IMG/VR virus record: IMGVR_UViG_3300010299_000039
Span: 1 to 31,084 of that record
Direction: 5' to 3' (one strand)
From: a virus
Length of the DNA stretch: 31,084 nt
The first letter of the stretch is position 1, and every line of letters begins with the position of its first letter. Made by a program: the position numbers and the translations under genes. A model generated the notes under the pieces. The model saw nothing but the letters and a program-made list of their open reading frames with translations. It searched no databases and had not been told where the DNA came from. Shown piece after piece: positions 2,716 to 21,800 of the stretch.

Positions 2716-3117
2716 ATGCCTTTAGAGCGAGTTAGTCGCAGTTTCAAAGATGTCAGCATGTCGTTTCAAAGTAATCCTTTGAATGATGATCTTGTTGCAC
2801 TAAAAAATGAAACTGCTATTGCTCGCTCTATTCGTAATATTGTTCTTACATCACCTGGAGAAAAATTTTTCCAACCAAATTTCGGATCAAGGATATCAGA
2901 ATCTCTTTTTGAAAACCTGGATGATATATCTGCACTGACAATACAGGATGAAATAAGAGATTCTATCCGAAAATTTGAACCTAGGGTGTTATTATTAGAT
3001 GTAACTGTAAATCCTAATTTTGATGCTAATCAGTTTGACGTTATCATTGTATATGAAATTATTGGTTCGGACATACAAGCACAACAACTAGAATTCGTTT
3101 TGCAACCAACAAGATAA
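2716..3117 (+). CDS. 25: Baseplate wedge protein gp25
   Basis: This is the gp25 baseplate wedge subunit, which joins the wedge to the start of the contractile sheath. The 133 residues match the family's usual length (T4 gp25 is about 132). The GPW/gp25 signature is visible: TSPGEKFFQPNFGSRI at residues 45-60 and the conserved EPRV at 88-91, followed by the strand pairs that close the fold. A late promoter lies upstream. The stop codon abuts the gp6 start with no gap, so the two wedge genes are probably coupled. In T4 itself gene 25 lies away from gene 6; adjacency to gp6 is usual in cyanophages. No clear Shine-Dalgarno precedes the ATG. Confidence 0.93.
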   Translation: MPLERVSRSFKDVSMSFQSNPLNDDLVALKNETAIARSIRNIVLTSPGEKFFQPNFGSRISESLFENLDDISALTIQDEIRDSIRKFEPRVLLLDVTVNPNFDANQFDVIIVYEIIGSDIQAQQLEFVLQPTR

Positions 3118-5052
3118 ATGCCTCTTTTAAATTTCACTAGTCTGGACTTTGACCAGATTAAAACCACCTTAAGAGAAGTTCTAAAAAAGAACAATAATTT
3201 CACAGATTATGACTTTGAGGGGTCAAATCTGTCAACGATTATTGACTTGTTGGCATATAACACATATATCTCCTCATATAATGCAAATATGATCTCAAAT
3301 GAGGTCTTTATTGATAGTGCAACTCTGAGAGAAAATGTAGTTGCACTTGCTAGAAATATTGGATATCTTCCAAGATCAAGAAGAGGATCCACATGTAATG
3401 TTAATTTTTTCGTAGACCTTTCTACATCAAATATAAATCCATCTTCAGTTACATTAAAAGCAGGTCCTGTCGTAGCGACAGCAAATCAATTTGGAAATCA
3501 ATCATACGTTTTTAATATCCTTGAAGATCTGACTGTTCCTGTTGTTGATGGAATAGCAGATTTTAATACTTTAGAAGTAATTGAAGGAATACGTATACAA
3601 CAGTCCTTTACATATTCCTCAAGGAATCCAAATCAACGCTTTATTTTGGAAAATTCTGGGATTGATATCAGTACGTTAGTTGTAAGCGTAAAACCAACTG
3701 ATACTTCTACAGTAAGAGTAAATTATACTCAAAACACGAGTTTATTTGATCAAAACACGGATAATGTTGTAACTGGTTCTTCCACAATATATTTTGTCCA
3801 AGAAGTAGAAGATGAGCAATATGAATTAATTTTTGGTGATGGAATATTTGGCAAAGCACTTGAAGATGGAAATGTTATAGACATTTCTTATTTGGTTTGT
3901 TCTGGTGAAGATGCAAATAGAATCAGCAACTTTACATTTAGTGGAAGACTTGTTTATTTAAGTAATTCAGTAGAAGTTAACATTACAAGTGGAATATCTC
4001 TTGTAACAGCAGATCTACCATCAAGTGGCGGTGAAGCAATTGAAAGTGTATCTTCGATTAAAAAATATGCACCTCAAGTTTATGGAACTCAAGATCGTGC
4101 AATAACTGCAAACGATTATGAGGTATTAATTCCAAATAAAATCTACACGGAAGCAGAGTCCATTTCTGTTTTTGGTGGAGAGGAGTTAGTTCCACCGCAA
4201 TACGGAAAAGTTTTTATTAGTATTAAACCAAGAAACGGAGATTTTGTTTCTCAAGCGATTAAAGAAAATATCAAAAGAGATTTAAGAAAATACTCAGTAA
4301 CCGGAATAGTCCCAGAGATATTGGATTTGAAATACTTATATGTTATTACTAGCAGTAAAGTATATTATAATACAAAATTAACCACTGATGTTGCTGGGGT
4401 TTCATCAACAATTCAATCCAATATCAATAATTACGCAGATTCTGCTGAATTAAATAAGTATGGGACTAGATTTAAATATAGTAAGTTTTTGAGTTTGATT
4501 GACAATAGTCACCCAGCAATAACTTCAAATATTACATCAGTTCAAATGAGAAGGGATTTGAGGTTGGCAACTAATACATTTGCAGAATATGCAATTGATT
4601 TTGGCAATCATCTTCATGTCCAATCGTTAAGTGGATACAACATAAAATCCAGTGCTTTTAGGGTGATAGATATAACAGATGATGTTTATCTTTTTGACGA
4701 ACCTATCGATAGAAAAACCGGAACAATATCACTTTACTCTTTACAAGCATCAGGTTCTACAACACCAGTTGTTAGAAGAAGAAATGTAGGAGCGATTGAT
4801 TATGTTAAAGGGAGAATTACACTAAACCCAATTAACATTGTATCAGGTAAATCTAAAGATAGGCAACAGATTATGGAGATATTCGCCGTTCCACATTCAA
4901 ATGACGTTATTGGATTGCAAGATTTGTACCTGCAATTAGATAACAGTTCAGTTGAAATGATTGTAGATGAAATATCTTCTGGGGCAGATCCATCAGGGTC
5001 TACATACAAAGCAACAGCAAGTTATTATGATGTTAACAACAACCCATATTAA
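3118..5052 (+). CDS. 6: Baseplate wedge protein gp6
   Basis: This is the gp6 baseplate wedge subunit (baseplate J-like family), which with gp7 and gp53 forms the wedge core and the inner baseplate ring. The 644 residues compare well with T4 gp6 (660). The N-terminal region has the characteristic GSNLSTIIDLLAYNTYISSY stretch followed by NEVFIDSATLRENVVALARN and the GYLPRSRRG turn (about residues 35-95). The middle has the typical QDRAITANDYEVLIP segment, and the C-terminal third is beta-rich. It starts directly after the gp25 stop (TAAATG) and ends 22 nt before the gp7 homologue. The order gp25-gp6-gp7-gp8 supports the assignment. I see no insertion of the modules found in its neighbours, which makes it the most conservative wedge gene here. 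Confidence 0.92.
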   Translation: MPLLNFTSLDFDQIKTTLREVLKKNNNFTDYDFEGSNLSTIIDLLAYNTYISSYNANMISNEVFIDSATLRENVVALARNIGYLPRSRRGSTCNVNFFVDLSTSNINPSSVTLKAGPVVATANQFGNQSYVFNILEDLTVPVVDGIADFNTLEVIEGIRIQQSFTYSSRNPNQRFILENSGIDISTLVVSVKPTDTSTVRVNYTQNTSLFDQNTDNVVTGSSTIYFVQEVEDEQYELIFGDGIFGKALEDGNVIDISYLVCSGEDANRISNFTFSGRLVYLSNSVEVNITSGISLVTADLPSSGGEAIESVSSIKKYAPQVYGTQDRAITANDYEVLIPNKIYTEAESISVFGGEELVPPQYGKVFISIKPRNGDFVSQAIKENIKRDLRKYSVTGIVPEILDLKYLYVITSSKVYYNTKLTTDVAGVSSTIQSNINNYADSAELNKYGTRFKYSKFLSLIDNSHPAITSNITSVQMRRDLRLATNTFAEYAIDFGNHLHVQSLSGYNIKSSAFRVIDITDDVYLFDEPIDRKTGTISLYSLQASGSTTPVVRRRNVGAIDYVKGRITLNPINIVSGKSKDRQQIMEIFAVPHSNDVIGLQDLYLQLDNSSVEMIVDEISSGADPSGSTYKATASYYDVNNNPY

Positions 5053-5074: not shown

Positions 5075-8000
5075 ATGGCGAAAAAAAGAGTTCAGATCAA
5101 ACATCTTTTAGAAAATCAGTTACCATCTTATGTTAGAGATGAGTTTCCACTGATTGCACAGTTTTTAAGAACTTATTATACTGGATTGGAGTTTCAGGGA
5201 GGTCCTTTAGACCTTATTGAAAACATTGATTCGTATATTAAACTGAACTCAAACGCAAATAATATAAAAGAAACAACTCTGACTTTTGATGCAGATGAAA
5301 GTCAGGGATACTTAGATGTAAGTAATACGCAAGGATTCCCAGATAACGCTGGCATTTTGCAAATTGATGATGAAATTATCATCTACCAAGCAAAAATTGG
5401 AACTAGATTTTTAGGGTGCACTAGAGGATTTGTTGGGATAACGTCATTTGAAAATCCAAATAACCCAGAAGAAGCAGTATTTTCATCATCAGATGCAGAT
5501 TCTCACTCTGCAGGGGCAACTGTAAAGAATTTAAGCGTACTATTTTTAGAAGAATTTTTAAAAAAAGTAAAAACTCAGTTTTTACCAGGACTTCAGTCGC
5601 AACAGTTAGATGATCAATTAAATCAAGCACAATTTATAAGACAGTCAAAAGACTTTTATTCCAGAAGAGGAACCGAAGATTCTTTTAAAATTTTATTCAA
5701 AGCACTTTATAATGATGAAATTGATATTATTAGACCGCAAGACTATTTAATTACTCCATCAAATGCTTCTTATCAATTAACCAGGGACTTGATTGTAGAG
5801 TCCGTTGAAGGTGATCCGTACAATCTTGTCAATAAAACTCTCTTCCAAGACGAATTTGAAAATATCACTACCGCATATGCTCCAGTTTCATATGTTGAGA
5901 GAGTAGTAGTTGGTGTTTTAACAGATGTTTATTATAAGGTAAGTATTGATTCCTCTTATAATCAATCGGATGGTTCTTCAGAACTTTTGTATGGAGATTT
6001 TTCAATTCATGCAAAAACGACAGTTATTGATGAAGTTGGCGTTGGACAAACTTATTTGGATGTCGATTCTACTATTGGGTTCCCACAGTCAGGTACGCTT
6101 TCTGTCACATTTTTAGATGGCACAGTTGGAGTAGTTACATATTCCGACAAATCATCCACACAATTCTTAGGAATCACTACAAGCAGTATAACAGGAACTA
6201 TTAGTGATAAGACAGTTATAGATCAAAATACTTTTGCATATGGATTTGATGATGAGACTGGAGAAAATGACGGAATTAAAATAAAAATTAGATCAGTTCT
6301 AAACGAATTACAAAAACCAACATCGGCATATTATCAATTACCAAATTCAAAGATTAAAATTAAATCTTTGGGTAAAGTATCTTCTGATACTAAAGCAAAT
6401 CATTGGTTCTTTAATACAGCACAATTCTATGATGTAAATAGTCTTACTTTAGAGGATTCATCAAATAATACATACAAACTAACTACTAAAGATGACAATA
6501 TTCTTAGAATTGGAGATCCTTTAGAACTGACCGATAGATTTACAGTCAAAGTATCTACGGATTTGTTTGTTGTTGATGTCTTTGACTCTAAAACTTGCTT
6601 AATAAGAGGATCTGGAGTAGGAGATCCTGCAAGTATTGTTAAAGTATCAAAAAGAATTTCTAAAGTCGATTCAAATTTTTACACAAATCTAACAAATTAC
6701 CCAGCAAATGTACAAAATACTTATGTTGATGGTGATAAAGTCTTAGTTGCAACAAACTCATTACCTTTCTTCTCAGATACTAAATTAAATCCAAAGAATC
6801 AAAAAATAACTCTTTCTGGCACATTTTCTCTTGGACAAGAAACTTTACAGATAACATCTGGTATTGATCACAATTACTACACTGGAGATATTGTATACTA
6901 TACGCCAGAAAAAAATACTATAGTATATACTGATGCTACTGGAAATGAAATAACAGAGTCCACAATAATTAGTTACCTTTTTGATGAAGGGAACTATGTT
7001 GTAAAAAGGATAGACTCTAATAATATTAAGTTGGCAAAAAGTGCATCAAACCTTTATGCCGAAAAGTTTGTAAGTATTGTTCCTCCTGGTGGAGCAGATA
7101 CTGTAGTTGTTGTTGGAAATACGTTAGAAAAAAGTGAATTTAGAGAAAAATCAATTAAACCCCAGAAAAAATACAGAGAAATATCTTCTCCGCTAGATGA
7201 AGTATATGATAAAAAAACTCGTTTTGATTATAATGGAATATTAATTAATGGCGTAGAAATTTTAAACTACAAATCAAAAGATTTTGTACATTATGGAAAA
7301 TTAGATTCTATTGAAATTTCTTCCGGTGGAAGTGGATATGATGTAATTAATCCACCAGTATTAAACATTAGTGACCCTGTAGGAACTGGCGCAACAGGAA
7401 CCTTTGCGGTAAAGGGAGAATTTAAAGAAATTCGTGTTTTAGATTCTGGTTTCGATTACATTGAAGTTCCCAAAGTAAAGATAACTGGTGGAAATGGGAC
7501 TGGAGCGACTGCAGATGTAAATCTGGTAACTATTCCCCATCAAGTTTCATTTAACCCAACAGGCGTATCTACCGATATTTCTGGTATAGGAACAGTTGGA
7601 TTTGGATCAGATGCGTCTACAATTGGATTTACGACTTATCATAAATTTAGAAATGGTGAAAGAATTGTATATAAAACTTTTGGCGAAAGATCTATTCTTG
7701 GTCTATCAACCGATGCAATATATCATGTTTCTGTTCAAAGTCCATACATTGTAAAATTACATAAAACTTTAGATGATTCTATTTTAGGTATTAACACCGT
7801 AGTTCTAACAAGTCCTGGTTCTGGAGTTCACCAACTCAAATCTTTGAATGGAAAATCTATAGTTGGATCTGTAAAACTAACGAATCCAGGATCTGGTTAT
7901 GAAAATAAAGAGAGAATTTGTTCACCAACAGGTATCAGTACAGCATTAAATACTGTAACCATCAGTAATCATGGATATAAAACTGGAGAAATTGTAAAAT

Positions 8001-11000
8001 ATTCTTTTGATGGAACTTCCATATCTGGTTTATCAACTACATCAGAATATTATGTAACTTCAATTGATGAAAATACCTTTAAATTATCTTTGGTTGGAGT
8101 AGGAACAACTTCCAAAGATTTTTATATTAAAACTAATCAATATGAAACTTTCTCAACAACTGGAGTAGGAACACATCGATTTAATTACCCACCAATATCA
8201 GTTGAAGTTGTAGGAAAAGTTGGGATCGCTTCTACTGGAAGCAGCAATTTCAAATCCATTCTCCAACCAATAGTAAGAGGAGAAATAACTTCAGTTCAAT
8301 TAACAGAATCTGGTGTTGGATATGGATCATCAGAAATTATTAATTTTAAAAGAGAACCAGAAGTAACAGCAAGAAGTGGTTATGGTGCTCAATTAGAAGC
8401 GATTGTTTCTGAAAGTGGAAGAATTATTGATGTAATTGTCAATAGGGGTGGGCAAGAGTATAATTCTCCACCAGAATTGATAGTATCTGGAATTGGTAGT
8501 GGGGCAAATTTAGTTCCCAAAATATCCAATGGATCTATAACTGGTGTTGAAATTAACAAATCTGGTGTTGGATATGGTGTTTCTACAACAACTATTGAAG
8601 TAAAAGAATCTGGTTCTAATGCTAGGTTTATTTCAAATGTTCAAAGATGGACTATTAACAATTTTGGAAAAAACTTACAAAACATCAATAATGACGATGT
8701 TTTCATATCTAAGGCTCCATCAGATGATTTGGAGTTACAATGTTCTTATGTTTATGCTCCAAGATCATTAAGAAAAATTATCTATTCGATAGATCAAGAT
8801 GGAAATCCACTTTATGGACAAAAAGATTTAAAAATTGTCAGTGGACAAGAAACAAACAATACAACTCACTCATCTATAATTGGATGGTCATATGATGGAT
8901 ATCCAATTTATGGACCTTACGCATATTCCACAAAATCTGGTGGAAGTATAACTCAAATGAAATCTGGTTATTCGTTGAGTTTAAAGACGAATAGACCACC
9001 AACAAATATTTTCCCAGAAGAATTTTTCGTTGAAGATTTTGAATGGAATGAATCTACTGATGAATCTGTTTTAGATGAGCACAATGGTAGATTCTGCGTA
9101 ACGCCAGACTATCCAAACGGAACTTATGCATATTTTGCAACATTTGATTTATCACCTGCATCAGATGGAATATTTAAAAATTACAAAAGACCAAGTTTTC
9201 CATATTTGATTGGAGATTATTTTAAGTCAAAACCAAATGAACTGAATTATGCTTCTAATTTTAACCAAGATCAATATGATTTAAATTCAACAAATTGGAG
9301 AAGAAACACTTACCCATATGCACTAACAAAGACTAATAGTGGATATGATTATTTGCAAAAGTCATATGACTTTGTAGATCAAGATTCTATAATCAAAACA
9401 ACAGAAAAAGGATATGTCGATTCTGTTGGAATTGTCACTGGCGGATCAAATTATAAAGTAAATGATAGAATTGTTTTTGAAAAAGAAAACAATTCCGAAT
9501 TTTTCTCAGCATCTAGGGTTTCTAAAATCTTAGGATCAAGTCCAACCACAATAAGTGTGGCAAGAACCGAAATATCAAATGTTGAGTTTTACCCTGCTAA
9601 TGGAAATGGACAATTCTTGGCAATTGGAACTGCTATTCATGGATTCAAAGGAAATGATCTGGTAACAATTTCTGGTCTTTCCACAACATCATCATTTGTT
9701 GAAGGATCGTATAATGTAGGTATCAATACAAACTACCTTACAGTATCTAAAGGAATCAATACTGATGGTGCCACTGGAATTGTTACTTATATTTCGGTTT
9801 CAGGTAATTTAACTTTCCCAAGAATTCAAGAGAATGATATTTTAGGTATAGGAACTGGATCTGAATTAGAATATGTCAAAGTTCTCAATATTGATAGATT
9901 TTCATCAAGGTTAAGAGTTATAAGGGCTCAAAATGGTGTAGTCGGAGTAAGTCACTCACTTTCTACCGCTATACAGGAATTCCCAAAAAGATTTACTGTA
10001 AATGTTGGATATAAAACAACATTTAATGATAAAGTAAATCGAGAGTATTACTTTAATCCCATAGAGTCTCTTGGAATTAGTGCCGTATCTGGTGTTGGAA
10101 TAGGAACTACAATATCTTTCTCAAATCCAGGGGCAGGAATTAGTGAAATATTTGTTCCAGCACAATCCATGTACTTGCCAAATCACAGATTGGTAACTGG
10201 GGATGAGGTTACGTATAGAATTAACTCTGGAGATCCTATTGGCGTATCCACAGTTAGTGCTGGATCATCATTCAATCTTGCAAATAACTCCACTTTATTT
10301 GTCACAAAACTAAGTGAAGATCTTATTGGATTATCAACAGTAAAAGTTGGACTTGGGACTACAGGAACATATGTTGGGGCTGCAAGCACAACTTCTGGTC
10401 AAGGTCTATTGTATTTTATTGGAGTTGGAACTGGTGTCTATCATAGTTTAGTAACAAATTATGATAAAATTGTAAAGGGAACTGTTGACAGAAACTTAGT
10501 TACAGTCTCAACCGCATCAACACATGGATTACTTAGAAATGATACTGTTTTTGTTGAAGTAGGTCCATCAATTTCTACATCAGTGACCGTAAAGTATAAC
10601 GGACACAATAGAAAAATGGTTATTGATAGTTTGGATTTTGTTTCTGGTGGAATCACAACTTCTGCAAACACAATAACATTAAATGAGCATGGATTAGTTA
10701 CTGGACAGAAAGTAATTCATACATCATCTTCTCCAGCGACTGGATTATCAAACAATGAAGAATATTATGTCTATGTTGTAGATAAGAATACGATTAAAGT
10801 TTGTGATACTAAGTATGAAACCACTAAACTTTATCCAAATTTTGTAAATATTGAGTCTCAATCTTCTGGCAGTATTTTACCGATCAATCCACCGTTAAAA
10901 TTCTACAGAAATTCTACAGTTACATTTGATGTAAGTGATTCTTCTTTATCATACATTCAAAATACAACCAATTATCCAGCATTTTCACTCAGATTCTATT

Positions 11001-14000
11001 CTGATTTAGAATTTAAAAATGAGTACTTTACAAATGGAACTTCTAATAGTTTTGAAGTAACAAAGTCGGGTATTGTAGGAACCTCTGGTGCGACAATAAC
11101 ATTAAGTATAAACTCAGATTCTCCAAATACTCTTTATTATAGATTAGAAGCAATAAATCTTCCAGGAAATCCAAAAGAAAATTTGGATATTGTTGTTGAC
11201 GATGAAGTAGAATCTTCAAATCAAATTGCTATTGTTAATAGCCTATACAATGGAACTCACACTGTAGCTGGAATAACTACAAATAGTTTTGATTACACAT
11301 TAAAAGAATATCCAGAATCAAATTCTTATTCATACACAACATCCACAATATCATACACAACCAACTCCAAGAATGCATATGGTCCAATTGCTGAAATTGA
11401 ATTTTCTGACAGAACTCTTGGATATTCAAGGTTGCCAGGAATAAGTACAATTTCTACTCTCTCTGGAACTGGAGCAGTTTTAGATCCATCAAGTAAAACT
11501 ATTGGAAGAGTTACAAAAACAAAATTGAATAACATTGGATTTAATTATCCATCAGATTTTACATTATCACCAGAAGCAAAACTTCCACAAATTTTAGAAC
11601 TATCAACTTTCTATAAATTTAAGAGTATTGGCATAACCTCTTTTGGTAGAGGATATACAACAGCACCATCTCTAGTTGTCCTTGATGGAGACACTAAGGA
11701 AAAGATTAATGATATTGAGTTGCAATATATAATCGGATCCTCTGAAGTTAAAATTAGGAAGAATACGCAAAGTTTGAGCGATAGTTCTCCCATAATCCTT
11801 CCAGTAGGAAATCCAAATGGAATTAGAGTTTCTAATTTGGAATATGATTCCTTTACCGAAACGGTAAAGGCAACAATGAAAGAGTCATATAGTGAGAATT
11901 TCCCAATTTCTGTTGGAGACAGAATTCTAGTAGAAAATTCAAGTGTTGGTGTGGGATCTACCACAAAAGGATTCAACTCCGATGAATATAATTATGCATT
12001 ATTTACCGTAACAGCAACTCACCCAAATCTTGGTGGAAATATTGGAGTTGTTACATATAGTTTTGCAAATTACCTTGAAGATAATGAGTATCTTGGAACT
12101 TTTAATTCTGTTAATTCTTCAGCAATCTTAGTTCCTGAGAAATATTTCCCACAATTTACATACGAGTTGGAATCAAATTCGTTCCAAAAAGGAAATTTAA
12201 TTACTTCTAATGGATCTGAAGGAACAATTTTTGATTGGGATGAAAATAATCAAGCATTAACAGTTGAGAGTTCTGATGATTTTGTTGTTGGAAACTTAGT
12301 TGAAGAATTGGTAACTGGATCAATAGCGAGAATTAACAAAATATATTCCACAAACTCCGAATATGTCCTAGATTATTTCTCAATATTTGATAATGGTTGG
12401 AGATATGATAGTGGATTCTTAAATGATCTCAATCAAAAAATCCAAGATAATGACTACTACCAAAACTTCTCATATTCAATTAGATCAAGAATTCCATTCG
12501 AAGACTGGAATGATGTTGTCAGTTCTCTTTTACACACCGCAGGACTTAAGAAATTCGGTGACTTGCAAGTAGAGTCTAAACTCCTTCCAGTAGATGAAGA
12601 GTCATTAACGATTAAACCAACAGATGCAACAACAGTTCAGGTTGACTATGTTAGTGAGTATGACTTAAATTGCGTTCCAAATTATGATCTTGTATCTGAA
12701 AATTATTTAAAAGCAACTCAAACTATAGATTTTTCAGATGAAATTACATTCAATACTAGACTTATAACCGATTATTCAGAATCAATTGGTAATAGAGTCT
12801 TAACGATTGATGACGTAAGTTCTACATTTAACAGCAATCCAGGAACTTTTGCTTATAGCAACATTTATAGACAACCTTTGGGTGATGGCGTTGCTACCAA
12901 GTTTATAGTTTATTCAAAGGATAGACTTTATACAGGAGAGAGACAACTTGCTTTAGTTACTGTTTTAAATGATGTTGCTAATGGAAGATCAGTTTTAAAC
13001 CAATATGCATTTGTTGATACTGTACTTGATTTGGGATCTTTTGATTATACGATTGAAGGATCTGAAGGTGTTCTACAGTATTATCCAAATAAGTTCACTC
13101 TTAATAACTATAACCTTACAGTTTTAGCATATAACTTAGATAGACTTGGATTAAATGATGAAACTGTAGGAGTCGGTTCCACTACCATTGGAGTTTCTAC
13201 AAATACTTCCTTCCCAGGAGCTCTTGTAAGCGTAGCAACTACTAATGTAGTAATTTCTGGTGTCACTACAACAGAAGTAATGACGATAGCAGGAATAGGA
13301 ACCTCAACTTCTGGCGTTAGATCCGCAAAAATTCTTGTAAGTGTAGAAGCAGACGATCAAGAAGAGTATGATGAAATTAGCATCATACATGATGGATCTG
13401 ATGTAAGGGTATCTGAGTATGGTCAGTTAACAACCCATTCCCTTGATGAATTCTCATCTTCTGGTTTGGGTACATATGGATTTACCATGTCAAATTCTGA
13501 CGTGGTATTTAAATATACACCAGAAGCTGGATTTACAACTACAAGAGTAAACGTTATTTCTGTAGGACTCTCTTCAGAGGGATATCAGGGTAGTGGAACA
13601 TATGACTTTAAGCATTCACGTCTTATAGCACAGACTGTTGGGATTGGATCAACCAATGCTCCTGTTGCGGTTGGTGTTGGCAGCTACGGTGACGACTATG
13701 ATGGTGCTTATGGAATAATCCAAGTTTCTGATTTAACAAATAACATTCACCAGTTCTCAGAATTCGTTATGGTTGATAGTGATTCAACTGTGTATTTGAG
13801 TGAATTTGGCACATTTGATACAATCGGATCAATCGCAGGATTAGGAACTTTAGGTGCTCAAAGAACAAGTAATAGGTCTGAATTGGTATTTACTCCAAAT
13901 TCTGACATTGAAGTTCATGTTAAGACCTTTATCAATGCATTAGGCATTGAAGACAATGCAAGTGGACTGTTCGAAAAAGATTTTGGAAATGCATCCATTA

Positions 14001-17000
14001 AAGATAGTTTTGCAACCTATACAGGAACTCTTGCTTTAATTAAGAGAGATTTCCCATTGACCCATGAGAATTATCAAATTTTTGAAAGAAATTTTGATGG
14101 ATCAGATTCAACTATCGTTAATTTGACAGATAATACAATTTCAATTCAAAATCACTTCTTTGTCAGTGGACAAGAATTAACATATTCTACAAGACTGGGA
14201 CTTGGAACTGACTACATTGGAATTGCATCTACTACTTTTGCTGGAATAGGATCAACTGATAGATTACCTGCTGGAGTTTTCTGTATCAAGGTGGACTCTA
14301 ACAAGATTAGACTCGCAACTTCTGCAGAAAATGCATTGAAGAAAAATCCAGTTTCAATTGGATTTACTTCTGTCGGCATTGGAAATTCCCATACATTCAC
14401 CGCAAAGGATGCAAATCAAAAAGTACTGGTTTCTATTGATAATGCAATTCAATCTCCAATTGCAGGAACATCAGTAACAACTTCTTTGGCAAGAGCAGCA
14501 ACAGTTGCTGATGATATTATCTACCTTGTAGGAATTACATCATTCTTTGGTGGCGAATATATTCAAATGGGCGATGAGGTTGTAAAAATATTATCAGTTG
14601 GCGTTGGATCCACTAATGCAATCAAGGTCAGTCGTGCTTGGTTAGGAACTACTCTTGCTGGGCATAGCACAGGTGCTCAAGTAACAAAAATTAGAGGAAA
14701 TTACAACATTATTGGAAATACGATCAACTTCATTGAAGCGCCATATGGAAATACTCCAATTGGTTCAATAACAGATCCACCATCGTTTAGAGACTGGATT
14801 GGCATTACATCATCATCATCTTTCAATGGTAGAGTTTTCTTACGCAATGGTATAGTTGGAACTTCAAGTGAAACATATACTAAAAATTATCTGTACGATG
14901 ACATAACTGAACTATTTGATGGACAAACAAAACAGTTCCCATTAACTGCAAATGACCAAGATGTTGTTGGAATTACAACAAACTTCCCACTTGTTTTAAT
15001 CAATGGTATTTTACAGGGTCCAGGTGCAAATTATAACTATACCTTATCTGAAGTTGCAGGAATCACTTCTATTACATTTACTGGAACAGCAAGTTCTGTA
15101 TCCTATGATGTTAATAATGCAAATGTTCCAACTGGTGGCGTTATTGTTTCTGTCGCATCTAGTGCTGGATTTGGACTTCAACCATTAGTTGCTGCTGGAG
15201 GAACAGCAATTGTTTCTGCTTCTGGTACAATTCAGTCAATTAGTATTGGAAATAGTGGATCTGGTTATAGAAGTGGTATTCAAACTACTGTTAACGTAGG
15301 TGTTGGAACTTCCTCAACAGGAAGACCAAATATTGAGTTTATTGGAACCGCTGCTATAAGTGGTGGACACATTGTTAGTGTCGCAATCACAAATCCTGGA
15401 GCAGGGTACACTTCATCCAATCCACCATATGTTGTATTTGATTCTCCACTTTCTTATACTAATTTACCACTTCATTATAGTGCAAGTTCTCCAGGTGTTG
15501 GAGGAACACAAGCTAAAGTCGATGTAGTTGTTGGACAAGGATCGAGTGTTATTGAGTTTAGTATATCAAACACTGGATATGGATATGGAGTTGGACAAGT
15601 TTTAACAATTGGAGTTGGTGGAACAGTTGGAATACCAACAGATCCAACAAAAACATTTGAAGAATTCAAAATCACAATTGATAGAGTAGATGCTGATGTG
15701 TTTACTGCATGGTCAGTTGGACAAATTGATGTACTTGATGATTTTTCAGTTCTTTTTGATGGCGGAAGAACAACTTTCCCAATCACACAGAACGGAAACG
15801 CATTATCAATTGTTGCTAAACCGGGATCAAACATATCAATCCAAGATACTCTTTTAATATTCATCAATGATATATTGCAAGTTCCTGGTGATGCGTATAC
15901 ATTCTCTGGCGGAAGTTCCATATCATTTGTAGAGGCTCCAAAAGCTGGAGACAGTCTCAAATTCTTATTCTACAAAGGAACTGGTGGTGTTGATGTTTTA
16001 GATATTGATGTTGTTGAAACAATTAAAGTTGGTGACGATTTAACCATAGAAAGCAGTGTTAACTCTTTAGACCAAGATACAAGAACAGTTTCTGAAATTG
16101 TTTCTGCTGGAACTGTTAACACCAATGTATACTATGGACCTGGTTTGAGTGGAGACACTACTTTATTGAGACCTGTTAAATGGTGTAGACAAACTGAAGA
16201 TAGACTTATTAATGGTAAAGTTGTTGATAAGTCCCGTATACTTTATGAACCAAATATTTTCCCAACAGCATATCTAACAAAGTCGGTTGGTATTGGTTCT
16301 ACTGAAATTTATGTTGACAACTTAAGACCATTCTTTAACCAATTAAATGAAAATGTTGTTTCTGTTGAATTCCAAAAAGATATATTAATATATGATTACA
16401 GTAATGAAAGAGTTTCAGCGGCAGCGACTGCTGTTGTATCTGTTGCTGGAACAATATCATCTGTTGTCATATCATCTGGTGGTATTGGTTATACTGCGGC
16501 ACCACAAGTTACAATAGCAAATCCAGTTGGAGTTGGAACATCACAAAGAGCAACTGCAACGGCTTCAGTATCTGCTGCTGCAACTGTCTCAAGTATATCA
16601 GTTTCATCCCCAGGAACTGGATACACATCATCAAATCCACCATTAGTTTTGATTGGACCTCCACCATCAATGTCAAAAGAAAGCAACACGATTGTTTCTT
16701 ACAGTGGTGATTTTGGTGTTATCACTGGCATTGGATCAACCTCAGTTGGAGTGGCTTCCACTGGAATAGTATTTGATTTGGTTATTGAAGCGACTTCCCC
16801 ATTGAGAAACAATACATCAATTACCCCACAAACCACCATTAGTGGATTGTCAACTGGTGACTATTTCATTGTTTATAATTCAAACGTTGGTAATGGGGTT
16901 ACTTCCTTGGATGAAAATCAAAATGTGATTGGTATTGGAACAACATGCTTGGATAACATTTATAGAGTTGCATCAGTTTCAACTGCTAATACATCTGCTA

Positions 17001-17242
17001 TTGGATTTGCATCAACAGACGTTGCTAGAGTTGTTGTTAGTGTTTCTGATTATAATGGATTTAGTGCTGCTGGATTGGCAATAAGCAGTTTCTACGGAAG
17101 ATTTAGTTGGGGCAAGATTATAATGAGTGAAAGAGTTGGAACCAGTACTTATTCTGCAATAACCACAAATGGTGTTGTTGGAATTCAAACTGGACCATAC
17201 GTGATAAGAGATAAATCATTAAAGTCTCAAGGCTATGCCTAA
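5075..17242 (+). CDS. 7: Giant baseplate wedge protein gp7 homologue (4055 aa) with YHYH domain
   Basis: This protein occupies the gp7 position between gp6 and gp8 but is about four times the length of T4 gp7 (1032 aa). Two segments resemble the C-terminal part of T4 gp7 as I remember it: residues about 12-55 plus 155-305, including DFYSRRGTEDSFKILFKALY near 193-212, and residues about 2445-2510, including NDYYQNFSYSIRSRIPFEDW from 2459. Between and after them lie many small Gly/Ser/Thr-rich, presumably beta modules: SGYT repeats, HGL-TG...YYV modules, DDE...RG modules, an SGA module, a tandem pair near 2750-2955, and paired FDG...FP.T modules near 3270 and 3550. A YHYH domain covers about residues 1235-1360. 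No transmembrane or signal sequence is seen. It is probably the vertex-spanning wedge protein, extended into an external fibre or armour. The frame is unbroken. The start has only a weak purine-rich ribosome site (AAGAAAAAG). Confidence 0.85.
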   Translation: MAKKRVQIKHLLENQLPSYVRDEFPLIAQFLRTYYTGLEFQGGPLDLIENIDSYIKLNSNANNIKETTLTFDADESQGYLDVSNTQGFPDNAGILQIDDEIIIYQAKIGTRFLGCTRGFVGITSFENPNNPEEAVFSSSDADSHSAGATVKNLSVLFLEEFLKKVKTQFLPGLQSQQLDDQLNQAQFIRQSKDFYSRRGTEDSFKILFKALYNDEIDIIRPQDYLITPSNASYQLTRDLIVESVEGDPYNLVNKTLFQDEFENITTAYAPVSYVERVVVGVLTDVYYKVSIDSSYNQSDGSSELLYGDFSIHAKTTVIDEVGVGQTYLDVDSTIGFPQSGTLSVTFLDGTVGVVTYSDKSSTQFLGITTSSITGTISDKTVIDQNTFAYGFDDETGENDGIKIKIRSVLNELQKPTSAYYQLPNSKIKIKSLGKVSSDTKANHWFFNTAQFYDVNSLTLEDSSNNTYKLTTKDDNILRIGDPLELTDRFTVKVSTDLFVVDVFDSKTCLIRGSGVGDPASIVKVSKRISKVDSNFYTNLTNYPANVQNTYVDGDKVLVATNSLPFFSDTKLNPKNQKITLSGTFSLGQETLQITSGIDHNYYTGDIVYYTPEKNTIVYTDATGNEITESTIISYLFDEGNYVVKRIDSNNIKLAKSASNLYAEKFVSIVPPGGADTVVVVGNTLEKSEFREKSIKPQKKYREISSPLDEVYDKKTRFDYNGILINGVEILNYKSKDFVHYGKLDSIEISSGGSGYDVINPPVLNISDPVGTGATGTFAVKGEFKEIRVLDSGFDYIEVPKVKITGGNGTGATADVNLVTIPHQVSFNPTGVSTDISGIGTVGFGSDASTIGFTTYHKFRNGERIVYKTFGERSILGLSTDAIYHVSVQSPYIVKLHKTLDDSILGINTVVLTSPGSGVHQLKSLNGKSIVGSVKLTNPGSGYENKERICSPTGISTALNTVTISNHGYKTGEIVKYSFDGTSISGLSTTSEYYVTSIDENTFKLSLVGVGTTSKDFYIKTNQYETFSTTGVGTHRFNYPPISVEVVGKVGIASTGSSNFKSILQPIVRGEITSVQLTESGVGYGSSEIINFKREPEVTARSGYGAQLEAIVSESGRIIDVIVNRGGQEYNSPPELIVSGIGSGANLVPKISNGSITGVEINKSGVGYGVSTTTIEVKESGSNARFISNVQRWTINNFGKNLQNINNDDVFISKAPSDDLELQCSYVYAPRSLRKIIYSIDQDGNPLYGQKDLKIVSGQETNNTTHSSIIGWSYDGYPIYGPYAYSTKSGGSITQMKSGYSLSLKTNRPPTNIFPEEFFVEDFEWNESTDESVLDEHNGRFCVTPDYPNGTYAYFATFDLSPASDGIFKNYKRPSFPYLIGDYFKSKPNELNYASNFNQDQYDLNSTNWRRNTYPYALTKTNSGYDYLQKSYDFVDQDSIIKTTEKGYVDSVGIVTGGSNYKVNDRIVFEKENNSEFFSASRVSKILGSSPTTISVARTEISNVEFYPANGNGQFLAIGTAIHGFKGNDLVTISGLSTTSSFVEGSYNVGINTNYLTVSKGINTDGATGIVTYISVSGNLTFPRIQENDILGIGTGSELEYVKVLNIDRFSSRLRVIRAQNGVVGVSHSLSTAIQEFPKRFTVNVGYKTTFNDKVNREYYFNPIESLGISAVSGVGIGTTISFSNPGAGISEIFVPAQSMYLPNHRLVTGDEVTYRINSGDPIGVSTVSAGSSFNLANNSTLFVTKLSEDLIGLSTVKVGLGTTGTYVGAASTTSGQGLLYFIGVGTGVYHSLVTNYDKIVKGTVDRNLVTVSTASTHGLLRNDTVFVEVGPSISTSVTVKYNGHNRKMVIDSLDFVSGGITTSANTITLNEHGLVTGQKVIHTSSSPATGLSNNEEYYVYVVDKNTIKVCDTKYETTKLYPNFVNIESQSSGSILPINPPLKFYRNSTVTFDVSDSSLSYIQNTTNYPAFSLRFYSDLEFKNEYFTNGTSNSFEVTKSGIVGTSGATITLSINSDSPNTLYYRLEAINLPGNPKENLDIVVDDEVESSNQIAIVNSLYNGTHTVAGITTNSFDYTLKEYPESNSYSYTTSTISYTTNSKNAYGPIAEIEFSDRTLGYSRLPGISTISTLSGTGAVLDPSSKTIGRVTKTKLNNIGFNYPSDFTLSPEAKLPQILELSTFYKFKSIGITSFGRGYTTAPSLVVLDGDTKEKINDIELQYIIGSSEVKIRKNTQSLSDSSPIILPVGNPNGIRVSNLEYDSFTETVKATMKESYSENFPISVGDRILVENSSVGVGSTTKGFNSDEYNYALFTVTATHPNLGGNIGVVTYSFANYLEDNEYLGTFNSVNSSAILVPEKYFPQFTYELESNSFQKGNLITSNGSEGTIFDWDENNQALTVESSDDFVVGNLVEELVTGSIARINKIYSTNSEYVLDYFSIFDNGWRYDSGFLNDLNQKIQDNDYYQNFSYSIRSRIPFEDWNDVVSSLLHTAGLKKFGDLQVESKLLPVDEESLTIKPTDATTVQVDYVSEYDLNCVPNYDLVSENYLKATQTIDFSDEITFNTRLITDYSESIGNRVLTIDDVSSTFNSNPGTFAYSNIYRQPLGDGVATKFIVYSKDRLYTGERQLALVTVLNDVANGRSVLNQYAFVDTVLDLGSFDYTIEGSEGVLQYYPNKFTLNNYNLTVLAYNLDRLGLNDETVGVGSTTIGVSTNTSFPGALVSVATTNVVISGVTTTEVMTIAGIGTSTSGVRSAKILVSVEADDQEEYDEISIIHDGSDVRVSEYGQLTTHSLDEFSSSGLGTYGFTMSNSDVVFKYTPEAGFTTTRVNVISVGLSSEGYQGSGTYDFKHSRLIAQTVGIGSTNAPVAVGVGSYGDDYDGAYGIIQVSDLTNNIHQFSEFVMVDSDSTVYLSEFGTFDTIGSIAGLGTLGAQRTSNRSELVFTPNSDIEVHVKTFINALGIEDNASGLFEKDFGNASIKDSFATYTGTLALIKRDFPLTHENYQIFERNFDGSDSTIVNLTDNTISIQNHFFVSGQELTYSTRLGLGTDYIGIASTTFAGIGSTDRLPAGVFCIKVDSNKIRLATSAENALKKNPVSIGFTSVGIGNSHTFTAKDANQKVLVSIDNAIQSPIAGTSVTTSLARAATVADDIIYLVGITSFFGGEYIQMGDEVVKILSVGVGSTNAIKVSRAWLGTTLAGHSTGAQVTKIRGNYNIIGNTINFIEAPYGNTPIGSITDPPSFRDWIGITSSSSFNGRVFLRNGIVGTSSETYTKNYLYDDITELFDGQTKQFPLTANDQDVVGITTNFPLVLINGILQGPGANYNYTLSEVAGITSITFTGTASSVSYDVNNANVPTGGVIVSVASSAGFGLQPLVAAGGTAIVSASGTIQSISIGNSGSGYRSGIQTTVNVGVGTSSTGRPNIEFIGTAAISGGHIVSVAITNPGAGYTSSNPPYVVFDSPLSYTNLPLHYSASSPGVGGTQAKVDVVVGQGSSVIEFSISNTGYGYGVGQVLTIGVGGTVGIPTDPTKTFEEFKITIDRVDADVFTAWSVGQIDVLDDFSVLFDGGRTTFPITQNGNALSIVAKPGSNISIQDTLLIFINDILQVPGDAYTFSGGSSISFVEAPKAGDSLKFLFYKGTGGVDVLDIDVVETIKVGDDLTIESSVNSLDQDTRTVSEIVSAGTVNTNVYYGPGLSGDTTLLRPVKWCRQTEDRLINGKVVDKSRILYEPNIFPTAYLTKSVGIGSTEIYVDNLRPFFNQLNENVVSVEFQKDILIYDYSNERVSAAATAVVSVAGTISSVVISSGGIGYTAAPQVTIANPVGVGTSQRATATASVSAAATVSSISVSSPGTGYTSSNPPLVLIGPPPSMSKESNTIVSYSGDFGVITGIGSTSVGVASTGIVFDLVIEATSPLRNNTSITPQTTISGLSTGDYFIVYNSNVGNGVTSLDENQNVIGIGTTCLDNIYRVASVSTANTSAIGFASTDVARVVVSVSDYNGFSAAGLAISSFYGRFSWGKIIMSERVGTSTYSAITTNGVVGIQTGPYVIRDKSLKSQGYA
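5276..5535 (+). repeat. DDE...RG...H-GA-V module in gp7 (one of about six in the window)
   Basis: Residues about 68-154 of the gp7 homologue read as a compact module: short strands (GYLDVSNTQGF), an IDDEIIIYQ strand, then LGCTRGF and a final HSAGATV. It interrupts the conserved gp7 N-terminal helical region. Related modules are visible within this gene at about 6014-6240, 9826-9990 and 14470-14705, in the DUF4815 protein at about 25206-25430, and in gp15 at about 30283-30492. Confidence 0.6.
6848..8180 (+). repeat. Cluster of HGL-TG...YYV modules in gp7
   Basis: Three copies of a 55-75-residue module are visible at about 6848-7060, 7618-7845 and 7955-8180. Each has a leading strand ending in H-x-(Y/F), a (T/N)GE.V.Y turn, a 'GLST' loop, then Y.V..ID.N..KL. 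The clearest copy (7955) contains ISNHGYKTGEIVKYSF and EYYVTSIDENTFKL. Further copies occur at about 9630-9760, 10165-10400, 10660-10815 and 14135-14395. The copies are diverged at both DNA and protein level, so the duplications are old. Confidence 0.6.
7300..7535 (+). repeat. SGYT-type glycine-rich repeats, first group in gp7
   Basis: Two repeats follow the pattern 'I.V...G.GY...P.V.I..P.G.GA.A..': SSGGSGYDVINPPVLNI, then DSGFDYIEVPKVKITGGNG. Further groups in the same gene lie at about 7867-7935, 8284-8625, 11620-11690, 15207-15600 and 16420-16660. The same repeat also appears in gp8, the DUF4815 protein and gp14. The regular strand-turn spacing suggests small beta hairpins or a short solenoid. 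Confidence 0.6.
8768..9170 (+). other. YHYH-type domain inside gp7
   Basis: Residues about 1235-1365 of the gp7 homologue contain HSSIIGWSYDGYPIYGPYAY (1265-1284), followed after about 50 residues by LDEHNGRFCVTPDYPNGTYA (from about 1333). This pairing is the signature of the YHYH domain family, known from bacterial and phage proteins of unsettled function. Here the name-giving YHYH is read as YAYF, so one histidine is missing. The conserved His and Asp residues hint at metal or ligand binding, but that is inference. Confidence 0.7.
13319..13948 (+). repeat. Tandem domain duplication in gp7
   Basis: Two roughly 80-residue domains in tandem share a layout: an I.VS strand, a Q..E segment, D....(V/Y).(L/V)SE.G, then GLGT.G, a short S...V..F.P element and a V..... 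strand. The first runs from about 13319 to 13565 (contains DVRVSEYGQLTTHSLDEF) and the second from about 13706 to 13948 (contains TVYLSEFGTFDTIGSIAG). They are clearly paralogous at protein level but diverged in DNA, so the duplication is old. Confidence 0.6.
14888..15970 (+). repeat. Paired FDG...FP.T...INGILQ modules in gp7 C-terminal region
   Basis: One module at about 14897-15120 contains ELFDGQTKQFPLTANDQDV and LVLINGILQGPGANY. The second at about 15737-15975 contains VLFDGGRTTFPITQNGN and LLIFINDILQVPGDAY with a following ISFVEAPKAGDSL. They are separated by three SGYT-type repeats. The module resembles a domain often seen in marine phage fibre and baseplate proteins, where it is presumed to be a beta-sandwich. 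Confidence 0.6.
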
Positions 17243-17266: not shown

Positions 17267-18817
17267 ATGTCTGCTATTATAACTGACCAGATTAGAATAT
17301 TAAATGCGAAGAATTTTGTGGCTGGATTTAACACCACTGCAAATTCTTACTACAGTTTTGTTGGTCTGCCAAATCCTACAGCAATTGACAGTGATTGGGA
17401 TAATGCTCCACCAGCACCCACAGATAATTTTGATAGCGAGAATAAAACATGGGAAACCATAATCGCTCTTAAAAAAATTACTTCTAGTGATGCCAAACAA
17501 GTAGTAAGAAAAAATGTTTGGAGTTCTGGTACTACCTATGATTATTACAGACATGATTATAGTATTACCAACACACCCAAAAATGCCAGTGGAACCTCTT
17601 TATACTCAGCAAATTATTTTGTAATTAATAGTGACTATCGAGTTTACATATGTCTTCAAAATGGAACTAACCCAGAAAATGTTAATGGTCAACCATCATT
17701 AGATGAACCAACATTTACTGATTTAGAACCAAGATCAGCAGGTACAAGTGGAGATGGATACATTTGGAAATACTTGTACACGATCAAACCATCAGATATT
17801 GTTAAGTTTGATACTACAGAATATTTGCCCGTGCCATCTGACTGGGCAACTAGTACAGAAAATGCTTCTGTTAGGGATAATGCTGTTGATGGCAGCATTA
17901 AAGTGGTTGTTATAAAAAATAGAGGTGTTGGCGTAGGAACTGCAAACAGAACTTACACAAAAGTTCCCATTAAAGGTGATGGTTCTGGTGCTGAGTGTAC
18001 AGTAACAATTAATAATGATGCAAAGGTCGGCAGTGTTGTAATTTCAAATCAAGGTTCTGGTTATACTTTTGGAAATGTCGATTTAATTGCTGGAGGAATT
18101 CCTTCACCAACAACATATCCAACTCTTGACGTCATTATTTCACCAAAAGGTGGCCATGGAGCAGATATTTACAGAGAATTGGGTGCTACAAACGTATTAC
18201 TCTATTCTAGGATAGAAAATGATACTGAAAACCCAGATTTTATAACTGGAAATGAAATTGCAAGAATTGGTGTTGTTGAAAATCCTCTTGCATATGGAAG
18301 TTCACAAATTTTATCTTTAGATAAAGCAAGTGGTGTTTATGCTTTGAAATTAACGGGAGCTGGATACAGTTCTGCTACATTTACATCAGACTCTGTTATT
18401 CAGCAAGTTATTGGAACTGGTCAAACTGCAATGGGAAAAGTTGTTAGTTATGATCAAACTACAGGTGTTTTGAAATATTGGCAAGAGAGAACTTTTGCTG
18501 GATTCTCAACAGTTGGAACAGCACAAACAAACCCAACATTTGGGTACACTTTAAACAGATTTACGGCTTCTCCAACTACTGGTGGAAGTTTCACAATCAC
18601 GGGTGGAAGTGTCAATTTGGGTATCGACACATCATTTACGGGTCTCTCAACCTCCATAAATAATAGGACATATTATCTTGGTCAAACGTTTACTAGCGGT
18701 GTATCGACTCCAGAAGTTCAACCATTCTCTGGCAACATTATCTACACTGATAATAGACCATCAATAACCAGATCTTCAAATCAAAAAGAAGACATTAAAA
18801 TTATATTGCAGTTCTAA
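17267..18817 (+). CDS. 8: Baseplate wedge protein gp8
   Basis: This is the gp8 wedge subunit, which sits as a dimer on the gp7/gp10 side of the T4 wedge. The recognisable elements are the central GDGYIWKYLYTIKPSD and the following TTEYLPVPSDW (about residues 163-190), a later IARIGVVENPLA, and the C-terminal IIYTDNRPSITR...KEDIKIILQF, all of which have counterparts in T4 gp8. At 516 residues it is about 180 longer than T4 gp8 (334). The extra length includes an SGYT-type repeat near residue 263 (SNQGSGYTFGNVDLIAGG) and an SGA-type module at about 373-420, the same modules that fill gp7. Its position directly after gp7 supports the call. Confidence 0.88.
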   Translation: MSAIITDQIRILNAKNFVAGFNTTANSYYSFVGLPNPTAIDSDWDNAPPAPTDNFDSENKTWETIIALKKITSSDAKQVVRKNVWSSGTTYDYYRHDYSITNTPKNASGTSLYSANYFVINSDYRVYICLQNGTNPENVNGQPSLDEPTFTDLEPRSAGTSGDGYIWKYLYTIKPSDIVKFDTTEYLPVPSDWATSTENASVRDNAVDGSIKVVVIKNRGVGVGTANRTYTKVPIKGDGSGAECTVTINNDAKVGSVVISNQGSGYTFGNVDLIAGGIPSPTTYPTLDVIISPKGGHGADIYRELGATNVLLYSRIENDTENPDFITGNEIARIGVVENPLAYGSSQILSLDKASGVYALKLTGAGYSSATFTSDSVIQQVIGTGQTAMGKVVSYDQTTGVLKYWQERTFAGFSTVGTAQTNPTFGYTLNRFTASPTTGGSFTITGGSVNLGIDTSFTGLSTSINNRTYYLGQTFTSGVSTPEVQPFSGNIIYTDNRPSITRSSNQKEDIKIILQF

Positions 18818-18823
18818 AAAACT

Positions 18824-21800
18824 ATGGCTCAACAAACCAACCTCAATGTCTCACCATATTTTGATGATTTTGATCCGAATAACAACTACCATAAAGTCCT
18901 CTTTAAACCTGGATATCCAGTTCAAGCAAGGGAACTAACTGGACTGCAATCTATTCTTCAGAATCAAATTGAAAGGTTTGGTCAACACTTCTTTAAAGAA
19001 GGTGCTAAGGTTATTCCTGGTAACACTGCATATACAAGGATATACAACGCAATAGAACTTAATAACACTCATTTGGGTGTTCCTGTAGATTACTACATTG
19101 ATCAACTTTTAAAAAGAAAAATTATCGGATTAACTTCAGGTGTAACTGCAATTATTGACAAAGTTTTAAAATCTGAAGATTCTGATAGGGGTAATTTAAC
19201 ACTTTATATTTCATACACATCATCTGGTGTACAGGATTCGGAGATCACCACATTTTTAGATGGAGAACTCTTATCTGCAGATATTGACATTGTATCTGGT
19301 CCATTAAATAATCCATTTATACCAACTGGAGAATCATTTGCGTCTGCAATTGCAGTAAATGCATCTTCGGTTGGATCGGCATTTTCAATATCAAACGGAG
19401 TATATTTTATTCGTGGAAATTTTGTAAATGTTTCTGATGAAACTATTATTTTATCACAATATAGTAATACTCCAACTGGTAGAATCGGTCTTAGAGTTTC
19501 CGAAGAAGTAGTAAATTCGGATCAGGACGAATCTTTAACAGACAATTCTAAAGGATATAACAACTACGCTGCTCCAGGAGCAGATCGTTTAAAAATTAGT
19601 TGTTCTCTTACAATTAAAGCAATTGATGACTTTAATGACTCAAATTTTGTTGAACTCGCCACTGTTAGAAATGGAGTTTTAGAGTCTCAGAAGAAAAACA
19701 CCCAGTACAACATAATTGCGGATGAATTAGCACGTAGAACATATGCTGAATCTGGCGATTATACAGTAATGCCATTTGATGTCTCTGTTAGAGAATCATT
19801 GAATGATGGTATTGGCAACAATGGAATATATGAAGAGGGTCAGTTTACCTCTGGTGGATCTTTAGCAAGTGATGATCTTGCATTATATGAGATTTCTCCA
19901 GGCAAAGCATTTGTAAAAGGATATGAAGTAGAAACAATCAATACTACATATCTCGATATTCAAAAACCAAGAACAACAAAAACTTTAGAAAATCAGGGAA
20001 TCATATACAATACTGGTTCCACTGTAAAGGTAAATAACGTTTTTGGTGCACCAACAACAGGAATAGGAAATACTTATATTGTAAGTTTAAGAGATCAAAG
20101 AGTAGGATCTAGTTCACTTAGTGCTCCTGGAAAGGAAATTGGTCTTGCAAGAGTATATGATTTTGCATTGGAAAGTGGGTCATATAGTGCGACAAATGCA
20201 GATACAAATCAATGGGATCTTCAGTTATATGATGTACAGACATTTTCTCATATTACACTGAATGAACCAGTAACACTATCAATTCCAACACACATTAAAG
20301 GAAAATATAGTGGAGCAACTGCTTTCCTTAGACATGCAGTTTCTGCGGGAACTTCAATAACTGTTTATGAAAAGAGTGGTGAATTTGTAAATAACGAACC
20401 ATTTATCTTCAATGGTATTGAAAATACAAGAGTTGCCATTGCAATAACTTCTTCTGGTATTACTGATGTGAAGTCTGTTTATGGCGGACCTTCTTTGGGT
20501 AATGTTGGTTCTGCATCAACGTTTACTGCAGACACAATTTTAGATACTTTAGTAAACATTGGAATTGCAACAGTAACACCGAATAGTTCAGGTGTAAGTA
20601 CAATTACAGCGTCTGCAGGATCTGCATTCTTATCTAAAGTAAAAGTAAACAGCGTTTTACAATATTCCGACAGTTCTGTTACTTTCACTGATCCTGTAGC
20701 AGTAAGAGTAACTAGTATTGGTTCAACATCGGTAACAGTTGTTGGAGTTCAAACTGTTACTGGAGTTGTAGATGGTGCTCTACCAACATCTACAAACTTG
20801 TCAGTAACTGACTTAAAAATTGTTGGAACTAAATTATCGGACTCAACAGGAGACCTTGATTCTGGGGCATTATACACCAGAATGCCAAAACAATTGATAT
20901 CAAATGTTGATTTAACCAACGCTCAATTGTCAATAAGAAAAACATTTACTGTTAATATATCGGGTAACCAACTTTCAAGTCCAGTCAGTGCTGGAGATAA
21001 TGAGACATTCTTAGCATTTGATGAAGAAAGATATTCTTTAATTAGATCCGATGGATCAACTGAGGAACTTTCTTCAGATAGATTTAGTTTCTCCGATGGA
21101 TCTACGGTTTTACAAATAAACAATTTGGGAAGTGATGATACTGGGGCAACTCTTTATGCATCTTTGAGAAAAACAAAACTAAAGGCAAAGGTTAAGAGAA
21201 AGAACAGAGTAAACACCCTCATTGTTAATAAGAGTAAACTTGAAGGATCTGGCATAGGATCAACAACACTCAACAATGGACTCACATATGGAACTTATGC
21301 ATATGGAACTAGAGTTGAAGATGAAAGAATATCTTTAAACAAAGCAGATGCAATTAGAGTTCTTGGAGTTTATGAGTCAACATCAACTTCAGCACCATCT
21401 GCTCCAAAAGTAACTTTAGCATCCTTATCTGGTGCAACCGGTAAAACTACGGACTTGATTATTGGAGAATTTGCGGTTGGTCAAACTTCTGGTGCAAGAG
21501 TAGTGTATGCTGAGAGACTTTCTGATAGTCAAATCACATACATTCCAAGAAATGACATTAATTTTGTTGAAGGAGAAACCGTTGTTTTCTCAGAATCAAA
21601 TGTAAGAGGAGTAGTTTCTACTTTAGAAACACCAAGTAAAGCAATAACTGGAAACTTTAAATTTAATAATGGACAAAAATCTTCAATATATGGTCACAGT
21701 TATATTACAAGAAGAAGTGATGCACAAGAACCAACAAGACAACTAAAAATTTATTTCTCAAATGCTTATTATGAATCAACAGATGATGGTGATATTACAA

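Follow-up and report, generated by a model that had tools for sequence, protein, structure and literature searches.

The window analysed here, 31,084 nucleotides of DNA from a record that is itself a 31-kb virus fragment, encodes a baseplate wedge protein, gp7, of 4,055 residues, in which three short pieces of a conserved core lie in their proper order but are pushed apart by insertions, the larger of which exceeds 2,000 residues. That the core of this giant protein is split in this way seems to us close to certain. The fullest explanation we can offer goes further, holding that the protein belongs to a marine cyanophage, that its split wedge core gained length by the addition of modules, and that the added chain forms arms at the baseplate periphery; to this reading as a whole we assign a probability of roughly three in four.

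A single frame between gp6 and gp8

The gp7 gene is a single open reading frame, running from ATG to stop across positions 5075-17242 on the plus strand. As the initial annotation had noted, it is unbroken and lies between the genes for its two wedge partners, gp6 upstream (3118-5052, plus strand; phrog_219, E = 1.7e-184; Pfam Gp6-like_1st, E = 2.6e-16) and gp8 downstream (17267-18817, plus strand; phrog_438, E = 3.6e-162; PF09215, E = 2.1e-14). With gp25 at 2716-3117, the gene order gp25-gp6-gp7-gp8 is that of the gp7 baseplate wedge family. Residues 2-3413 match phrog_2885 (PHROG 2885, baseplate wedge subunit) with E = 0. The Pfam family Baseplate_wedge (PF23786) scores 19.2 bits against the whole protein, below its curated cut-off of 27, and a search of NCBIfam gave no match; when PF23786 is compared with our alignment of compact gp7 homologues, all 28 of 28 members match at E<=1 (best E = 2.6e-17). 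The nearest isolate, the Synechococcus phage SynMITS9220M01, has a homologue of 4,067 residues at the same position, with 63.5% identity over the whole length, and because an isolate carries such a gene the giant frame can be accepted without invoking an assembly artefact. On the strength of these sequence matches, the frame is a marine cyanophage gp7, a protein that GenBank entries for such phages annotate as baseplate wedge subunit or initiator.

Two other frames in the window may be mentioned here. A second giant frame of 2,532 residues lies 3' of gp8 (18824-26422); it belongs to PHROG 358, a family of no known function, and is named VrlC-like in relatives. Upstream of gp25, a frame of 257 residues (1699-2472) matches a PHROG annotated as ferredoxin (E = 1.4e-109).

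Three core pieces, far apart and in order

We built a compact-core profile from 30 compact gp7 homologues, leaving out the window, the cyanophage giants and T4, and scaled its E-values against the window as for a database of 20,000 sequences. Three pieces of gp7, together about 250 residues, match three consecutive parts of this one profile in order: the N-terminal helical piece A (residues 4-59, positions 5084-5251; profile 3-58, E = 6.8e-7), piece B (residues 158-281, positions 5546-5917; profile 60-182, E = 4e-20) and piece C (residues 2439-2499, positions 12389-12571; profile 307-366, E = 1.3e-14), all on the plus strand. Piece B holds a DFY..GT..SFK motif at residues 193-212 (5651-5710), where DFYSRRGTEDSF starts at residue 193. 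Piece C, in a region with the pattern YQ.FSY..RS...W..HPAG, holds the second motif, NDYYQNFSYSIRSRIPFEDW, at residues 2459-2478 (12449-12508). The starts of the two motifs are 2,266 residues apart, as against 119 for their T4 gp7 counterparts, DFYSTKGIEASY at 733 and IDYINRSRSYYVMKIKSNLPSSRW at 852, an excess of 2,147 residues. The initial annotation had described two such segments, some 2,260 residues apart here and 100-150 apart in T4, and was right to do so. Its further picture of a core split in two by about 2,150 inserted residues needs some revision: adjacent gp7 regions do lie far apart, but the core is in three pieces rather than two, owing to a first insertion at residues ~60-157, and the figure of 2,150, which agrees with the excess over T4, falls to nearer 2,000 when measured against compact relatives (94-178 residues between motifs).

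In T4 gp7 the compact-core profile matches residues 643-842 (E = 7.4e-14) and 866-897 (E = 8.5e-5), and the two motifs therefore correspond to different, neighbouring regions of gp7. Both segments proposed to resemble gp7 do so, the second by way of compact homologues, and the possibility that they are two copies of one gp7 region is ruled out by the order of the profile matches. Compared at the level of profiles, piece B aligns with T4 gp7 727-758 (score 73.6, E = 2.6e-9) and the piece C block with 866-897 (E = 4.9e-6). With its columns shuffled, the T4 alignment does not reproduce these scores: for motif 1 against the T4 gp7 family none of 150 shuffles was comparable (at most 25.2 versus 73.6), and for motif 2 the compact-homologue profile gave 45.0 versus at most 22.3. 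With a cyanophage-only profile motif 2 scored 37.7 versus at most 23.6, one outlier per set excepted; each of the two shuffle sets for piece C contained one anomalously high score (130.1 and 134.4), and that of the second set, 134.4, comes from just 15 columns where the alignment ends, the next score being 23.6. When T4 gp7 is compared with the giant gp7s directly, piece B is found (E = 1.2e-8) and motif 2 is rightly placed (2466-2488) but without significance (E = 0.22), so that the assignment of piece C rests on the compact intermediates. An hmmsearch with the compact alignment against the PDB returned gp7 as its best matches (E = 9.9e-14 and 3.8e-10), followed by the gp18 sheath protein.

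AlphaFold modelled a compact homologue with a mean pLDDT of 60.8 (about 90 in the beta region, about 50-70 in the helical core), and the top three Foldseek matches of this model are T4-type gp7s (1.5e-7, 3.3e-7 and 9.9e-6, the next being at 0.04); their TM-scores are 0.07-0.14, so the model shows local likeness to gp7 only. For a relative of the Melnitz type (alignment A1), which carries both insertions, the model had a mean pLDDT of 49 and was unusable.

A graded series of natural relatives

All three core blocks were located in 197 open reading frames (92 once redundancy was removed), and in 193 of them A, B and C are strictly colinear; in L120, one of the exceptions, the ends of two profile matches overlap by 2 residues. 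Note that these relatives were gathered by targeted searches and that their proportions are no census. The gap between A and B is 1-17 residues in compact gp7s, about 100-130 in those of pelagiphages, Methylophilales phages and cyanophages, and 628 in P-SSM4. The gap between B and C spans 94 to 2,723 residues: 94-178 in compact gp7s, 256-726 in intermediate ones, 1,507 in S-PM2, about 2,100-2,330 in most marine cyanophages (2,161 in the gp7 of the window) and 2,723 in P-SSM4. The split core is thus not unique to this phage and is, judging by these alignments, common to marine cyanophage gp7s. The most extreme split we saw is that of P-SSM4, whose gp7 (L074, 2495-24433) has 7,312 residues and is followed by a gp9-type protein.

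At the compact end of the series, the gp7s of Yut3 (503 residues), pf16 (523), ACP17 (482) and BUCT-ZZ01 (607) all adjoin gp6, and there are many compact metagenomic relatives besides these phage proteins. Here A, B and C fall within about 370-450 residues, with piece C rightly ordered, and the linker between B and C is already about 100 residues long, including one glycine-rich beta module, which we call G.

How might such a linker have become an insertion of two thousand residues? Across gap classes of rising length the B-C gap holds on average 1.0, 1.9, 2.5 and 5.3 copies of G, and copy number correlates with gap length (Spearman 0.67 with an iterated profile that is partly trained on the giants, related sequences being treated as independent; 0.30 with the un-iterated profile). 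This suggests, as far as alignments can tell, that the gap grew by duplication of modules together with the acquisition of other domains. On a tree of the core blocks, unrooted and weak in its deep branches, the giant class requires 2 changes, compared with a mean of 13.8 after shuffling, so that giant gp7s may have had one origin. The proposal that the long chain grew out of a loop of the core fits this series, although the tree cannot fix the direction of change, and it is solely the comparison with T4 gp7 and the 242-residue gp17 of XM1 that argues for growth.

Insertions and repeated modules

Insertion 1 (residues 60-157, positions 5252-5545, plus strand) makes the A-B gap 104 residues long, as against 1-17 in compact gp7s, from which the insertion is missing. 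Within it, profile self-comparison places one T-type module at residues 67-116; another lies at residues 315-368. Insertion 2 (residues 282-2438, positions 5918-12388, plus strand), delimited by the colinear split and marked by internal repeats, consists of modules repeated in series and a YHYH domain; on the left its boundary, around residue 280-300, is not sharp. Matches to a G-module profile, which started from the linker between B and C in compact homologues and was then iterated, lie at residues 740-817 (7292-7525; one or more copies, E = 2e-15), 1067-1170 (8273-8584; E = 3e-14, and 1.9e-5 with the un-iterated profile) and, weakly, 2102-2165 (11378-11569; E = 0.004, also a profile repeat), all on the plus strand. 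G, of which compact gp7s have a single copy between B and C, accounts for just part of insertion 2. Profile self-comparison reveals a second type, H, also on the plus strand, at residues 598-659 (6866-7051), 856-922 (7640-7840; E = 2.4e-8 to the next copy), 951-1037 (7925-8185; E = 5e-11 to the copy at 1857), 1694-1758 (10154-10348) and 1857-1933 (10643-10873). The YHYH domain occupies residues 1260-1359 (8852-9151, plus strand; PF14240, E = 4.9e-24, 85.8 bits versus a cut-off of 25). It is also present in the other seven marine cyanophage gp7s that we sampled.

No match to the core profile lies beyond residue 2499, in keeping with the initial description of some 1,550 further residues following the core. 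This C-terminal extension (residues 2500-4055, positions 12572-17239, plus strand) has module repeats of its own, with H at 3015-3108, G at 3384-3454 and 3790-3858, and two further repeat pairs (2753/2882 and 3275/3555). Long insertion and extension thus carry overlapping sets of small glycine-rich modules and, since both G and H recur after piece C, draw on one module stock.

The G region of compact gp7s resembles the T4 sheath protein gp18 (E = 5e-7 to 2e-6), and 12 of 28 compact gp7s match Gp18 domain I (PF22639; best E = 2.7e-7), a family that the window's own G copies do not match. Searched against the PDB by themselves, the window's G and H copies gave nothing convincing. G modules also occur in two other proteins of the window, the neck protein gp14 (28908-29219, residues 273-376; two copies, E ~1e-13) and gp8 (17885-18067, residues 207-267; one copy, 6e-5). 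Going by these profile matches and the likeness to gp18, several tail proteins, gp7 among them, seem to be decorated with one and the same module.

A possible role for the long chain

In T4, gp7 is joined with two chains of gp6. Pieces A, B and C would together be the conserved wedge core, which pairs with two gp6 chains in T4 and XM1. The chain would leave this core twice and come back each time, after an excursion of about 100 residues from A to B and one of about 2,150 from B to C, and beyond C would continue for about 1,550 more. Most likely the G module of the linker was duplicated, and H modules, YHYH and other domains were acquired. As for function, a structural one is most likely: the core would make up the wedge itself, while from its periphery two arms would reach outward and either carry the outer baseplate or form it. 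XM1 gp17, TssG and P2 gpI all have a gp7-type role in a 2:1 heterotrimer of the gp6-gp7 type (PMC10457771, PMC6300606), and in XM1 gp17, a gp7 orthologue of 242 residues, loop 80-106 and the C-terminus project from the protein, each holding six tail spikes (PMC10457771). By analogy, the simplest reading would be that outlets of the XM1 type have here been lengthened into arms. The comparisons above establish the identity of the protein, the colinear split into three, the graded series of relatives, the repetition of modules and purifying selection. That the three pieces make up one folded core, that growth was the direction of change, that the arms point outward and what they might bind are matters of inference.

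As to what the arms do, our first choice, held at slightly under even odds and by analogy with XM1, is that they may serve as a peripheral scaffold for the outer baseplate. The second choice, which we think rather unlikely, is that they are host-binding devices, a monomeric adhesin made of many carbohydrate-binding-like modules and mounted on the wedge, and no scaffold for other proteins. Such a role would suit the resemblance of H modules to the endosialidase beta-barrel family, which lies below the cut-off (End_beta_barrel, PF12195, versus residues 1857-1933: E = 7.4e-6, 26.3 bits, cut-off 35; second copy E = 0.001), but the H profile has no significant relative of known structure in the PDB (best E = 0.065; endosialidase E = 2.8). 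Conservation can likewise be read in two ways. In most comparisons with five relatives, pieces B and C show the highest conservation. Among close relatives the core blocks are better conserved than the insertion (against L012, for example, 0.72-0.76 versus 0.58-0.66 identity), as expected of a host-facing surface. However, core and insertions are both under purifying selection (dN/dS ~0.08-0.33 against five relatives, rough values with dS near or at saturation), and insertion length is kept within a genus-level group, unlike fast-changing receptor-binding tips. These phages also have separate fibre genes, as seen in the virion proteome of S-CREM2 (PMC10665884).

A quite improbable alternative, as we see it, is that the enlarged gp7 replaces gp10 and gp11, peripheral wedge proteins of T4 that are missing here. 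Across 15 records, Pfam GP11 was found in T4 only and the gp9/gp10 N-terminal family in T4, P-SSM4 and Melnitz only, although diverged forms of either protein may escape profile searches. However, phages with compact (Yut3, BUCT-ZZ01) and mid-sized (Cr30, DLP6, phiM7) gp7s are also without both, so that absence of these families does not go hand in hand with expansion of gp7, and P-SSM4, with the largest gp7 seen, retains a gp9/10-type protein. Replacement of gp10 and gp11 as the driver of gp7 growth is therefore unsupported.

We give very little credence to the idea that piece C is merely a recurrent short motif and the protein an N-terminal gp7 fragment fused to unrelated virion proteins. 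The direct link of piece C to T4 is indeed short (23-32 columns) and weak without intermediates, but piece C is the best-scoring and rightly ordered match in every full-length relative, compact ones included. In the 1,937-residue gp7 of S-CREM2, moreover, B spans 158-237 and C 1848-1921, with just 16 residues after C. Piece C thus ends the protein, so that there the insertion lies inside the core, and a gp7 can evidently be large without a C-terminal extension. An artefact of assembly or gene calling that merged several genes, for which we found nothing in favour, is ruled out by isolates with the same single frame (3,048-7,312 residues) and by the presence of the S-CREM2 product in virions, with 91 unique peptides (PMC10665884).

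Returning to the scaffold, one may imagine a more specific picture, possible though on balance improbable, in which the baseplate periphery of marine cyanophages has grown from the wedge protein itself. The T4 baseplate contains six gp7 monomers (PMC3004832). Six gp7 chains with two arms each would be of megadalton scale in sum; the arms, in which barrel-like modules and sheath-like ones of the gp18 domain I type are repeated, would exit at fixed points of an otherwise intact core. Built from monomers, they would form an outer shell or an adhesive rim such as no solved baseplate has.

Comparison with known wedge proteins

In a comparison from 2010, gp7 was counted with the non-cyanophage core and described as highly divergent (PMC3037559). 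A split core would explain the difficulty of identifying cyanophage gp7s, and we found no account of one in the full texts we searched, which came mostly from outside the subscription journals. Contractile injection machines have gp7 in their conserved centre, a place where one would expect long internal insertions to carry a high cost. Natural gp7s that range from compact to giant, while retaining their core and always inserting at the same points, reveal where the machine tolerates extra chain, and through them one can follow the growth of a structural protein by module duplication. The series suggests, too, that very abundant ocean phages construct the periphery of their baseplate in another way than T4 does, a compact machine part having been turned into the root of a very long arm.

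Among known proteins, the giant gp7s of SynMITS9220M01, S-SM2, P-SSM2 and P-SSM4 share with this gp7 the gene position, core pieces, insertion points and module types, and differ from it in length only (3,048-7,312 residues in the isolates sampled). Compact gp7s of 466-700 residues (Yut3, BUCT-ZZ01 and related metagenomic phages) share the A-B-C order, with one G module between B and C, whereas they are without insertion 1 and have a B-C gap of 94-178 residues versus 2,161 here. The 1,032-residue gp7 of T4 (PDB 5IV5) likewise lies between gp6 and gp8, with A-B at 643-842 and C at 866-897, but has a linker of about 30 residues where this gp7 has over 2,000. T4 gp7 also has about 640 N-terminal residues of its own without counterpart here, and so does not represent the ancestral length; residues 1-640 were considered as a source of the insertion and ruled out, there being no similarity. 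Smallest are P2 gpI and XM1 gp17, with 176-242 residues versus 4,055; P2 gpI was not detected as a sequence relative of gp7 (E = 0.26), and in XM1 gp17 it is an internal loop and the C-terminus that project.
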